From: Actibacterium lipolyticum | GTDB taxonomy: Bacteria; Pseudomonadota; Alphaproteobacteria; Rhodobacterales; Rhodobacteraceae | DNA: 64,000 bases | Direction: 5' to 3' | Assembly (NCBI RefSeq): GCF_900184935.1 | Contig: NZ_FXYE01000001.1 | Span: 372,001-436,000, forward strand | Part shown: piece after piece, positions 6,834-10,766 of the stretch | Position numbering within the stretch: the stretch's first letter is position 1 | Layout of the letters: every line of letters starts with the position of its first letter | Made by a program: the position numbers and the translations under genes | Notes under the pieces: model-generated | The model's input: only the letters and a program-made list of their open reading frames with translations | Told to the model about the DNA's origin: nothing | Databases searched by the model: none

Positions 6834-6941
6834 GCGCTGCAAGATAGAGTTGGCGGCGGCGAAGTCCATGCTAATTGTTGCGCCCACCCACCTGAATGCG
6901 TATTGTGAAAAACCTTCCCGCCTGACCAAGGACACCGCCGT

Positions 6942-9425
6942 ATGAGCCGCTTTTCCGCCCCGATCGCAGAACAAATCTGGGACATGAAATATCGTCTGAA
7001 AGAGGCTGACGGCACGCCCCTTGATGTAACAGTAGAGGATTCGTGGCGCCGCATCGCCCGCGCCTTGGCCGAGGTGGAGCAAGAACCCAAACATTGGGAA
7101 GAAAAATTCTTCGACGCGCTGGAGGATTTCAAATACCTGCCGGCGGGCCGGATCACTGCGGGTGCTGGCACGGCGCGTTCCGTGACCCTGTTCAACTGCT
7201 TTGTCATGGGCACGGTCCCTGACAGTATGGGCGGCATTTTCGATATGCTGAAAGAGGCCGCACTGACCATGCAGCAGGGCGGTGGTATCGGCTATGATTT
7301 CAGCACGATCCGCCCCAAGGGCGCGGGTGTGAAGGGCGTGGCGGCCGATGCCTCTGGCCCGCTGTCATTCATGGATGTGTGGGACGCCATGTGTCGCACG
7401 ATCATGAGCGCAGGCAGCCGCCGTGGCGCGATGATGGCCACGATGCGCTGTGACCACCCCGATATCGAAGATTTCATCACGGCCAAGGAAGACCCGGCGC
7501 GCCTGCGAAACTTTAACGTGTCCGTCCTTGTGACTGATCCGTTCATGGAGGCCGTAAAGGCCGACGGCAGCTGGGATTTGGTGTTCGACGGCACGATCTA
7601 TCACACAGTTCAGGCGCGTGATCTGTGGAACAAGATCATGAACGGTACCTACAGCTATGCCGAGCCGGGCGTGATTTTCATCGACCGCATCAACCAGATG
7701 AACAACCTGTCTTATTGCGAAACCATCGCAGCGACGAACCCGTGCGGCGAACAGCCCCTGCCGCCCTATGGCGCGTGCCTTTTGGGTTCCATCAACCTTG
7801 CACGCCTGGTGAAAAACCCGTTCGACGCGATTTCGGAACTGGACGAAGCAGAACTGGACGATCTGGTCGCGACTGCGGTTCGGATGATGGACAACGTCGT
7901 CGATGCCTCGCGCTTCCCACTGCCCGCACAAGCCGAAGAGGCGAAGAACAAGCGCCGCATTGGCCTTGGCGTAACGGGGCTTGCCGATGCTTTGCTGATG
8001 GTCGGCTTGCGCTATGGTTCAGAGGAGGCGGCGCGTCAGACCGAGCGTTGGCTGCACCGGATCGCGCGCGCCGCGTATCTGGCGTCGGTGGACTTGGCGA
8101 AGGAAAAGGGCGCGTTCCCCTTGTTCGATGCCGACAAATACTTGGCCACAGGGCACATGTTGCAAATGGACGATGACGTGCGCGATGCGATCCGTGAACA
8201 CGGCATCCGCAATGCGTTGCTGACCTCTATCGCGCCTACGGGCACGATCTCTCTCTATGCTGGCAACGTCTCGTCCGGGATCGAGCCTGTGTTCGCCTAT
8301 GCCTATACCCGCAAAGTCCTGCAAAAGGATGGCACCCGCACTGAAGAAGAGGTTGTGGATTACGCCGTTCAGATGTGGCGCGAAAAGAACGGCGATGCCG
8401 AACTGCCCGACTATTTTGTGAACGCACAAACACTGGCCCCGCTGGATCACGTGCGTATGCAGGCGGCGGCGCAGAAATGGATCGACAGTTCGATCTCCAA
8501 AACCATCAACTGCCCCGAAGACATCAGCTTTGACGCGTTCAAAGACGTCTACATGGAGGCGTACGAGACCGGCTGTAAAGGCTGCACCACATATCGCCCG
8601 AATGACGTGACGGGCAGCGTGCTGAGCGTTTCGGAGAACGATGAAGAGACATTCGCCGGCAGATTGAGGCTAGCACGCAAAGGAACGGGTCTGACGCAGG
8701 AAGAGCTTGCTCGGAAACTCGGGATAACCAAATCGGCAATTTCCAACGCAGAGAACGGTATCGCGCAGAGCATGAGGAATCTTGCGAAATTGGCGGAGGT
8801 TCTAGGCGTCCAGCCGGGTTGGTTGCAGTTTGGGTCAACTGCTCCTGAAGTCATGGCGAACTCGGGGTTGGAAAACACGATTCCTCACGGTGACGTGATC
8901 TATATGGCCGAACCGCTGGACCGCCCACAGGCCTTGGAAGGCAATACCTACAAGCTGAAATGGCCCGACAGCGAGCATGCGATCTACATCACGATCAACG
9001 ACGTGGTGATCAACGGCCACCGCCGCCCATTCGAAGTGTTCATCAACTCCAAGAACATGGAGCATTTCGCCTGGACGGTTGCGTTGACGCGCATGATCTC
9101 GGCCGTGTTCCGTCGCGGGGGCGATGTGTCTTTCGTTGTGGAAGAGTTGAAAGCCGTTTTCGACCCGCGCGGTGGTGCTTGGATGCAGGGCAAATACATC
9201 CCTTCGATCCTCGCGGCGATCGGCGGTGTCATCGAACGCCACCTTGTGACCATCGGCTTTATCGAAGGCGAAGGCATGGGTCTGAAGACGGACCCACAGG
9301 CCGAAGCCATGGCCGTGGGGGAGCGCCCCAAAGGCAAAGCATGCCCAAGCTGCGGACAGTTCGACATGCGCATGGTCGAAGGATGCATGACCTGCATGAG
9401 CTGCGGCCACTCGAAGTGTGGTTAG
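6942..9425 (+). CDS. nrdJ: Adenosylcobalamin-dependent (class II) ribonucleotide reductase with an inserted XRE-type HTH domain
   Basis: Reduces ribonucleotides to deoxyribonucleotides using a B12-derived thiyl radical, without oxygen. In the 827-residue protein the alpha-barrel is clear. An FNCFVMG cysteine lies near residue 85, the catalytic loop NPCGE is at residues 266-270, and GLGVTGLADALL and the conserved SIAPTGTISL follow. A TSCPD-type domain (about 655-770) and a C-terminal cysteine-rich tail (CPSCG...CMTCMSCGHSKCG), likely the redox shuttle, complete it. Between the barrel (ends TYRPNDVTGSVL) and the resumption at HGDVIYMAEPLDRP lies a typical Cro/C1 helix-turn-helix (about residues 570-632, LTQEELARKLGITKSAISNAENG). 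The frame is intact through the insert, but its codon use is visibly less GC-rich at third positions than the flanks. The enzyme call is secure; the role of the HTH is unknown. Confidence 0.95.
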   Translation: MSRFSAPIAEQIWDMKYRLKEADGTPLDVTVEDSWRRIARALAEVEQEPKHWEEKFFDALEDFKYLPAGRITAGAGTARSVTLFNCFVMGTVPDSMGGIFDMLKEAALTMQQGGGIGYDFSTIRPKGAGVKGVAADASGPLSFMDVWDAMCRTIMSAGSRRGAMMATMRCDHPDIEDFITAKEDPARLRNFNVSVLVTDPFMEAVKADGSWDLVFDGTIYHTVQARDLWNKIMNGTYSYAEPGVIFIDRINQMNNLSYCETIAATNPCGEQPLPPYGACLLGSINLARLVKNPFDAISELDEAELDDLVATAVRMMDNVVDASRFPLPAQAEEAKNKRRIGLGVTGLADALLMVGLRYGSEEAARQTERWLHRIARAAYLASVDLAKEKGAFPLFDADKYLATGHMLQMDDDVRDAIREHGIRNALLTSIAPTGTISLYAGNVSSGIEPVFAYAYTRKVLQKDGTRTEEEVVDYAVQMWREKNGDAELPDYFVNAQTLAPLDHVRMQAAAQKWIDSSISKTINCPEDISFDAFKDVYMEAYETGCKGCTTYRPNDVTGSVLSVSENDEETFAGRLRLARKGTGLTQEELARKLGITKSAISNAENGIAQSMRNLAKLAEVLGVQPGWLQFGSTAPEVMANSGLENTIPHGDVIYMAEPLDRPQALEGNTYKLKWPDSEHAIYITINDVVINGHRRPFEVFINSKNMEHFAWTVALTRMISAVFRRGGDVSFVVEELKAVFDPRGGAWMQGKYIPSILAAIGGVIERHLVTIGFIEGEGMGLKTDPQAEAMAVGERPKGKACPSCGQFDMRMVEGCMTCMSCGHSKCG

Positions 9426-9590
9426 GTGTTGATGTTCCCCGTTGTGGATGCCCCCATAGTCTTGCCATTTTGACCCTGAAAACTGCCATTCTGGTCTGAT
9501 AAAACTGCCATCGTCCATTTTGGCTTGCTGGAACGCAATTTCTTTCCTAGCTCCAAGGGGCTTGGGTACTCAGAGTTGGCCACGATCAGA

Positions 9591-9779
9591 ATGGCGCATT
9601 GGTATACGGCGGATACCCACTTTGGGCACGAAAACATCATTACGTTCTGCAACAGGCCCTTCGCTAATACTGACGACATGGATGCAACCATGCTCAAGAA
9701 CCTCGCAGATCGTGTGGGGCCGGATGACGAACTGTGGATCATCGGCGACTTCGCCTTTGGTCGAAAAGCAAAAGTGTAG
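9591..9779 (+). pseudogene. Metallophosphoesterase fragment (5' part), cut by an IS481 element
   Basis: The first 60 or so codons encode the start of a calcineurin-like phosphoesterase. The metal-binding DTHFGHENI motif (DxHxxH) is at residues 8-16 and a GDF motif is near residue 56. The frame ends at a TAG exactly where the IS481-family element begins, so the remaining metal-binding motifs and most of the domain are missing. The rest of the gene is not found on the far side of the element, where IS3 sequence lies instead. A non-functional remnant is the best reading. Confidence 0.75.
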
Positions 9780-9782
9780 ATA

Positions 9783-10766
9783 TGTACGGACTCTCGGGAC
9801 ACTTCCTGTAAATTACCCAATCTTGGGTGGAGGAAGTTTTCATGACGAACGAAGATCGGGACATTCAACGCAAGCTTAGAGTGCTTCAACATGCCGAGAA
9901 GATCGGCAACGTACGCAAAACTTGCCGATATTTTGGGGTTGGGAGATCGAGCTTCTATAGATGGCGGGACGCATACCAGAAGCATGGTGAAGCCGGTCTT
10001 AAGAACGCCAAATCTGTTCCGAAGAACCCTGCCAATCAGACACCTGCCCAGATTGTCGAGAAGGTCCTGTATCTTCGCCGCAAATATCACCTGGGGCCTA
10101 TCCGGATCGTCTGGTATTTAGCGCGATATCACGACATCAAGATCTCTGACGCCGGGGTCTATCGCATTCTCAGACGCAACGGCCTCAACCGGCTGCCCAG
10201 AGGCACGCGCATGCGGAAGTTGCACACCAAGCGTTATCAGAAGCAGGTTCCTGGTCATCATATCCAGGTAGACGTCAAGTTCCTGACGTTTAAGGGGAAA
10301 CGCGGCGAAAAGGTGCGCCGCTTCCAGTACACGGCAATTGACGATGCGACGCGTGTAAGAGCGCTAAAGATCTACGACAAGCACACGCAGGCAAACGCGA
10401 TCAACTTCATTGATCATATCATTGAGAAGTTCCCGTTCCGCATTCGCGAAGTTCGTACTGACAATGGCCATGAGTTCCAAGCCAAGTTCCATTGGCATGT
10501 CGAGGACAAAGGCATTCGACACTCCTACATCAAGCGGGGCACGCTACAGCTCAATGGCAAAGTTGAGCGATCCCACCGATCCGATCAGCAAGAATTCTAT
10601 CAACTCCTCAGCTATAAAGGCGATGTCGATCTGGAGGCAAAACTGAACGAATGGGAGCGGTTCTATAACTTCGCAAGACCGCACGGCGCACACAATGGCC
10701 AGACCCCTTATGAAGCTCTCAGAGACAAGCTACAGTGATCGGATAAGTGTCCCGCCGGTCTGTCTA
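9783..10766 (+). mobile_element. IS481-family insertion sequence
   Basis: An element of about 0.98 kb with one transposase gene. Imperfect terminal inverted repeats of roughly 22 bases are visible. The left end (9783-9804) finishes in CGGGACACTT, and the right end (10745-10766) begins with its complement AAGTGTCCCG. The exact outermost bases are uncertain. The left flank is a metallophosphoesterase and the right flank an IS3 remnant, and I see no clear target duplication. That suggests deletion or recombination after insertion rather than simple transposition into one gene. Confidence 0.75.
9842..10738 (+). CDS. IS481-family transposase
   Basis: A 298-residue DDE transposase. Its N-terminal helix-turn-helix is near residues 15-50 (LQHAEKIGNVRKTCRYFGVGRSSFYRW). 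The integrase core then runs HHIQVDVKFL (first D), VRTDNGHEF (second D) and KVERSHRSDQQEF (E). The start is the ATG preceded by a good ribosome binding site (GGAGGAAG, 5 bases away). The gene looks intact and fills the element between its inverted repeats. Confidence 0.9.
   Translation: MTNEDRDIQRKLRVLQHAEKIGNVRKTCRYFGVGRSSFYRWRDAYQKHGEAGLKNAKSVPKNPANQTPAQIVEKVLYLRRKYHLGPIRIVWYLARYHDIKISDAGVYRILRRNGLNRLPRGTRMRKLHTKRYQKQVPGHHIQVDVKFLTFKGKRGEKVRRFQYTAIDDATRVRALKIYDKHTQANAINFIDHIIEKFPFRIREVRTDNGHEFQAKFHWHVEDKGIRHSYIKRGTLQLNGKVERSHRSDQQEFYQLLSYKGDVDLEAKLNEWERFYNFARPHGAHNGQTPYEALRDKLQ

Follow-up and report, generated by a model that had tools for sequence, protein, structure and literature searches.

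Ribonucleotide reductases (RNRs) bind dNTP effectors, and their control is generally ascribed to allosteric sites, ATP-cones, and NrdR. XRE proteins, which carry a helix-turn-helix (HTH), are usually local regulators. In the HppE epoxidase and in cyanate hydratase the HTH is not known to vary. Type I restriction HsdS and phage immunity regions have constant flanks and a swapped recognition part, with turnover between close relatives. Literature searches, judged by titles and the openings of abstracts, returned no paper on an HTH within an RNR. No occurrence of helix-turn-helix, DNA-binding, TSCPD, or NrdJ was counted in passages of Burnim et al. 2022 (PMC9531940), where 'helix-turn-helices' is used for a ferritin fold only; the C-terminal domain of class II RNRs is called IscU-like there, and we infer this domain to be the TSCPD domain.

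The window analysed here is a stretch of 64,000 nucleotides from Actibacterium lipolyticum (contig NZ_FXYE01000001.1, positions 372,001 to 436,000), whose nrdJ gene, with all its parts and its upstream spacer, is described on the plus strand. The window NrdJ has the barrel, catalytic residues, TSCPD domain, and C-terminal cysteines in common with NrdJ_Z (PDB code: 1xje), but it has about 70 extra linker residues which form an XRE HTH. The five-helix fold of this HTH is shared with 434 CI/Cro and P22 c2 (XRE, HTH_3), although it lies inside an enzyme and is not a free-standing repressor. The insert may also be likened to the ATP-cone and NrdR, which are accessory or regulatory parts tied to RNR control; however, it is a different domain and is C-terminal to the barrel. 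As in HppE and cyanate hydratase, an HTH fold is joined to a catalytic domain, whereas the HTH of NrdJ differs between close relatives. HppE is indeed among the fold matches of the HTH, and CYNS_N (cyanate hydratase) is a weak Pfam match. With its constant flanks, swapped recognition part, and turnover, the cassette resembles HsdS and the phage immunity regions, but there is no homology and the carrier is a metabolic enzyme.

The gene (6942..9422) is an open reading frame of 827 codons, open throughout, and it was assigned to the class II (adenosylcobalamin-dependent) RNRs with an HTH insert from the reading frame, Pfam, TIGR02504, and the alignment to 1xje. Its product scores 602.3 bits with the NCBIfam equivalog NrdJ_Z (TIGR02504), for which the cut-off is 399.95. 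Pfam places Ribonuc_red_lgN at residues 7-79, the catalytic lgC barrel (PF02867) at residues 85-551 (7194..8594; 3.6e-130), and TSCPD (PF12637) at residues 670-768 (8949..9245; 4e-11). In the barrel, C86, N266, C268, E270, and C279 align to Thermotoga maritima NrdJ (1xje) and are invariant in 42 sequences; we take N266, C268, and E270 to be the N-x-C-x-E motif with the thiyl cysteine, and C86 and C279 to be the disulfide cysteine pair. The C-terminal cysteine tail (C801, C804, C815, C818, C821, and C826; 9342..9419) is also invariant in the 42 aligned sequences. The product is an intact class II RNR as judged from its sequence, and AdoCbl-dependent activity is predicted. No Pfam match to the ATP-cone was seen within it at E<=1. 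A second RNR large-subunit gene is present in the same genome as a 1245-aa open frame (contig C10:234190-236445), about 30% identical. Since the class I small subunit (PF00268) had no match across this genome, while the control was positive in 7 of 14 genomes, the second RNR is presumably of class II too.

The insert, bordered by the conserved GSVLSV and APEV(..)PHGDV stretches, spans residues 564-633 (8631..8840) and consists of a lead-in and a complete XRE/HTH_3 domain. Its right border, APEV...PHGDV (residues 634-652; 8841..8897), is found in many carriers and in many insert-free relatives. The initial annotation had described a complete Cro/C1 HTH in frame between the NrdJ barrel and the TSCPD part, and the domain is borne out by Pfam: HTH_3 matches residues 575-628 (8664..8825) at 3.5e-15 and 56.2 bits, against a cut-off of 23, within the unbroken frame. 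It had also called the codon use unlike that of the flanks, which agrees with the GC3 of the insert region, 0.58, against 0.73 for the barrel. In the AlphaFold2 model of the whole NrdJ, which has a modest mean pLDDT of 69.5, five helices lie within residues 571-630, and the pLDDT is below 50 on both sides of the HTH (555-567 and 633-658). When the HTH was modelled alone, five helices were again predicted, at a pLDDT of 84.6. The best fold matches of this model are 434 Cro (PDB code: 2cro; TM 0.82/0.91, rmsd 1.1) and the 434 repressor, followed lower down by P22 c2, HipB, SinR, and the restriction controllers C.BclI and C.AhdI. The predicted model is therefore of the five-helix lambda-repressor-like fold, and the likeness to phage repressors that had been proposed holds down to the 434 Cro/repressor fold. 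The sequence itself matches the 434 repressor at 4.1e-8, and the net charge of the HTH is +5. Helix 3 of the model (residues 597-604; 8730..8753) is taken as the recognition helix. Peptidase S24 has no match in the 827-aa product, so only the HTH is common with the S24/CI-like phage immunity repressors, and Padloc gave HTH-level matches and nothing more. When a target-site duplication was sought at the insert, only 8-nt direct repeats, taken as chance, were seen.

Inserts of this kind recur in the family. In a search with nearly one genome per genus, 357 of 394 genomes matched NrdJ at 1e-100, and at least 43 of these 357 have a long HTH-like insert at the equivalent point (41 rows cover the whole query and two more extend into the HTH; all 43 loci were checked). 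The count of 43 covers the top-scoring rows and is a minimum, as carriers whose match is split may rank lower. Besides the 43 carriers, 27 insert-free loci were retrieved from among the higher-scoring of the 357 positive genomes. In the insert-free relatives the same flanks adjoin each other. When 84,980 species genomes were scanned with PHGDV[IV]Y[MIL]S, a motif that lies outside the HTH, 137 stretches were obtained; the 80 that were kept belong, by record title, to Rhodobacteraceae genera and to a few MAGs titled just Alphaproteobacteria, and long linkers are present in 34 of these 80 loci. In 156 loci, barrel and TSCPD are connected by a linker of either 43-67 aa or 111-154 aa, with no intermediates. 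These reduce to 134 distinct linkers, with the long linkers L104 and L105 clipped at 150 aa (right border not found). Among the 64 distinct long linkers, 63 match HTH_3 at a threshold of E<=0.05, which is not the curated cut-off, with L105 ended for the domain scan at a frameshift after its HTH. PHROG family 4 is matched by 57 of the 64, and PHROG family 8 also by 57. The carriers L105 and L106 have a proline/glycine-rich stretch beyond the HTH, with L105 out of frame from that point on. In Rhodobacteraceae, the site is thus either short or occupied by one of many highly divergent HTH sequences. When 289 genomes of the class were searched at 1e-10 with a 120-aa query around the insert, the window's genome was the only one to match, although a differing HTH would score low in such a search. 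The outcome of the homologue search advised in the initial annotation was not foreseen there: relatives do bear an HTH at that point, though in most cases one of another sequence.

The barrel-to-TSCPD linker is an in-frame exchangeable site for XRE/HTH_3 domains. Over 820 carrier pairs, median identity is 84% in the barrel and 83% in the C-terminus, but 29% in the linker/HTH; C-terminus similarity follows that of the barrel (rho 0.51), while HTH similarity hardly does (rho 0.12). Aligned HTH cores have a median identity of 25% (2016 pairs). The two species of the window's genus have HTHs identical at 17 of 60 positions (28%), with barrels at 91% and C-termini at 96%. Since the only other genome of the genus has a different HTH, the window HTH itself is not conserved. 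In a second genus, five species with barrels at 87.5-94.4% were compared: four of them have HTHs that differ from one another (13-32% identity), and the linker of the fifth is empty. In a third genus, with barrels at 92.8-94.9%, two species have HTHs at 22% identity and the linker of a third species is empty. Replacement between species is therefore seen in three genera, and an empty linker in two of these, so that the insert is dispensable. In DNA alignments of five pairs, high identity runs up to the insert borders and is lost inside, i.e. the borders are sharp. Because the flanks are near-constant on both sides and what lies between them varies among species of one genus, the cassettes are exchanged or lost whole; recombination between the homologous flanks would be the simplest route. 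Sampling was of one genome per species, and exchange was assessed between species.

On the body tree, insert presence takes 15 changes over 70 rows (the mean after shuffling is 21.7, and one of 500 shuffles was as low), and the six multi-member HTH types take 21 changes over 49 rows (the mean after shuffling is 24.9, and two of 300 shuffles were as low). The counts are rough for both trees, and 32 of the 67 inner branches of the presence tree are drawn open. Type T1 (25 of 64) is a chained cluster. Since the changes are fewer than in shuffled sets, presence and type turn over often yet retain some descent signal. The initial annotation had looked to conservation of the recognition helix; the identity of helix 3 is about average within HTH types, and between types it is the least identical helix. 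Helix 3 as the best conserved part within types was rejected by this identity count.

In the HTH of seven of ten same-type pairs, which were hand-picked, dN/dS is 0.11-0.26, with HTH dS near saturation in several; the other three pairs are saturated. HTH dS exceeds barrel dS in all seven measurable pairs (e.g. 1.06 and 0.33), as expected if the cassettes predate the present bodies, or if codon constraint on the HTH is weaker. Across loci, GC3 is 0.60 in the HTH regions and 0.83 in the bodies, and it is lower in the HTH in 71 of 72 (up to 17 loci being repeats). Weaker selection on codons, and not a foreign origin, may underlie this difference. Of the 64 HTH cores, 50 carry a net positive charge, 6 are neutral, and 8 are net negative (mean +2.0), the last group including three of the four cores of type T5. 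As a control, 11 free-standing XREs of the window's own genome have a mean charge of +2.5; these are 11 of its 12 other HTH_3 matches, and one under the cut-off was dropped.

The window HTH is 45-50% identical to the best phage/plasmid repressor matches shown, and 45% identical to its nearest NrdJ-borne HTHs in a separate alignment; it is therefore about equally close to both, as far as figures from different alignments can be compared. Among its 894 phage records, one is in the 60-80% band, outside the matches shown. For type B, the best five matches are NrdJ-borne and the next three are free-standing proteins (35-42%), and ten relatives were found in viral contigs (33-45% identity). For type T2, the best five matches are NrdJ-borne as well, and thereafter NrdJ-borne and free-standing ones are interleaved. 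The free-standing T2 relatives among the matches listed are mostly frames of 216-288 aa. The three free-standing relatives that were scanned all have the HTH, and two of them also have Peptidase_S24. One T2 relative is present in viral contigs, a small XRE protein which is 56% identical, contains the stretch LNPTAVYDILKGKS, and has a recognition helix that nearly matches that of the T2 HTH. By eye, no such HTH was seen in 54 viral NrdJ loci (some linkers clipped at 150 aa; 4 linkers unlocated), and the PHGDV pattern has no matches in viral contigs. Several of the viral NrdJ linkers (L012-L065) are long and varied, e.g. L022 and L036, and four pieces of phage-borne NrdJ linkers scanned had no Pfam match. 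The barrel-TSCPD linker may tolerate insertions in phages too.

The candidate nrdJ promoter of the window is a 69-bp spacer (6873..6941) to a divergent DUF1489 gene, whose start codon was picked by eye. That the enzyme could control its own promoter had been proposed from the sequence, and this found no support in a comparison of 59 loci (1711 pairs). Similarity of the upstream 200 bp follows that of the body (rho 0.36), and its partial correlation with HTH type, with body similarity controlled, is -0.10, with 487 of 500 shuffles as high. Autoregulation via a type-specific operator was rejected on this basis: the HTH type shows no association with the 200 bp upstream of nrdJ, and therefore autoregulation is not supported. 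A site that we call DnaA-box-like lies within 300 bp upstream of 21 of the 59 nrdJ genes with the insert and 41 of the 72 without it; for what we take to be an NrdR-like half site, the numbers are 30 of 59 and 31 of 72, respectively. The DnaA-box-like TTATCCACA near the NrdR-like motifs ATATNGTA is recurrent upstream of nrdJ with or without the HTH; visual inspection of the 69-bp spacer in the window showed none of these motifs.

Fold, charge, and purifying selection suggest that the HTH is plausibly able to bind DNA, and it is likely a DNA-binding domain tethered to the RNR dimer, with specificity being what changes. The differing modules in close species hint at a DNA-binding job with an ever-changing target. 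We tentatively read the insert as an exchangeable DNA-binding cassette in NrdJ, possibly aimed at phages or mobile elements, a reading that is plausible but far from assured. An anti-mobile-element role is our committed guess because of the phage-type origin, the turnover, and the lack of a promoter signal. In such a scheme, a DNA-binding domain that derives from the repressors of phages or mobile elements would profit from the abundance and dimeric state of the RNR; NrdJ-HTH would occupy and repress operators that arrive with incoming elements or belong to changing sites in the host; and shifting element populations would drive the turnover of cassettes. It is more doubtful that the RNR dimer is the chassis of a hypervariable immunity, in which swapped repressor domains occupy the operators of incoming temperate phages or mobile elements and specificity moves as a cassette among strains and species. 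A class II RNR that stays nearly constant while its phage-repressor-type HTH varies between sister species would physically connect the supply of nucleotides with specific DNA, or alternatively it would reveal a new kind of recognition locus concealed in a metabolic gene. Many natural cassettes in similar bodies, together with the insert-free relatives, make a ready set of variants for experiments.

A disordered linker may instead tolerate a small, fast-folding HTH, captured and exchanged by recombination as a passive or near-neutral cassette without use in DNA binding. The low model confidence of the linker on both sides of the HTH, the many insert-free relatives, the net negative charge of some cores, and the several phage-borne NrdJs with long linkers, of which the scanned pieces lack a Pfam match, are in line with this. 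However, nearly all distinct long linkers (63/64) are of one domain family, the fold and a mostly positive charge are retained, the measurable dN/dS values are low, and no linker of intermediate length occurs, so that we consider passivity rather unlikely. The initial annotation had offered a passive linker acquired from a phage-type repressor; the likeness to phage repressors stands, but the passivity is weakened by the HTH_3 matches and by dN/dS. It is still less probable that the enzyme acts as its own repressor or sensor, regulating host genes or nrdJ and coupling dNTP status to transcription. XRE proteins do mostly act locally, and here an XRE HTH is tethered to an enzyme which binds dNTP effectors; but the upstream 200 bp do not co-vary with HTH type, the upstream motifs are common to insert-free genes, and a regulon would need rewiring at every species-level swap. 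A role in protein-protein binding is similarly improbable, with the HTH engaging a partner (in a phage antirepressor, Stl-like, or antitoxin-like interaction) and thereby acting as a decoy or, through an effect on RNR activity, as a sensor. By structure titles, its fold neighbours include the phi106 repressor with AimX and Stl with dUTPase, and some cores are acidic, whereas most cores (50/64) keep a net positive charge.

Directly 3' of nrdJ, an insertion sequence (9786-10763) with a rve-type transposase (9827-10738) sits at the end of a short ORF (9525-9779), which has no Pfam match but by eye resembles the start of a metallophosphoesterase. The ends of the insertion sequence are 19-nt imperfect inverted repeats (9786-9804 and 10745-10763).
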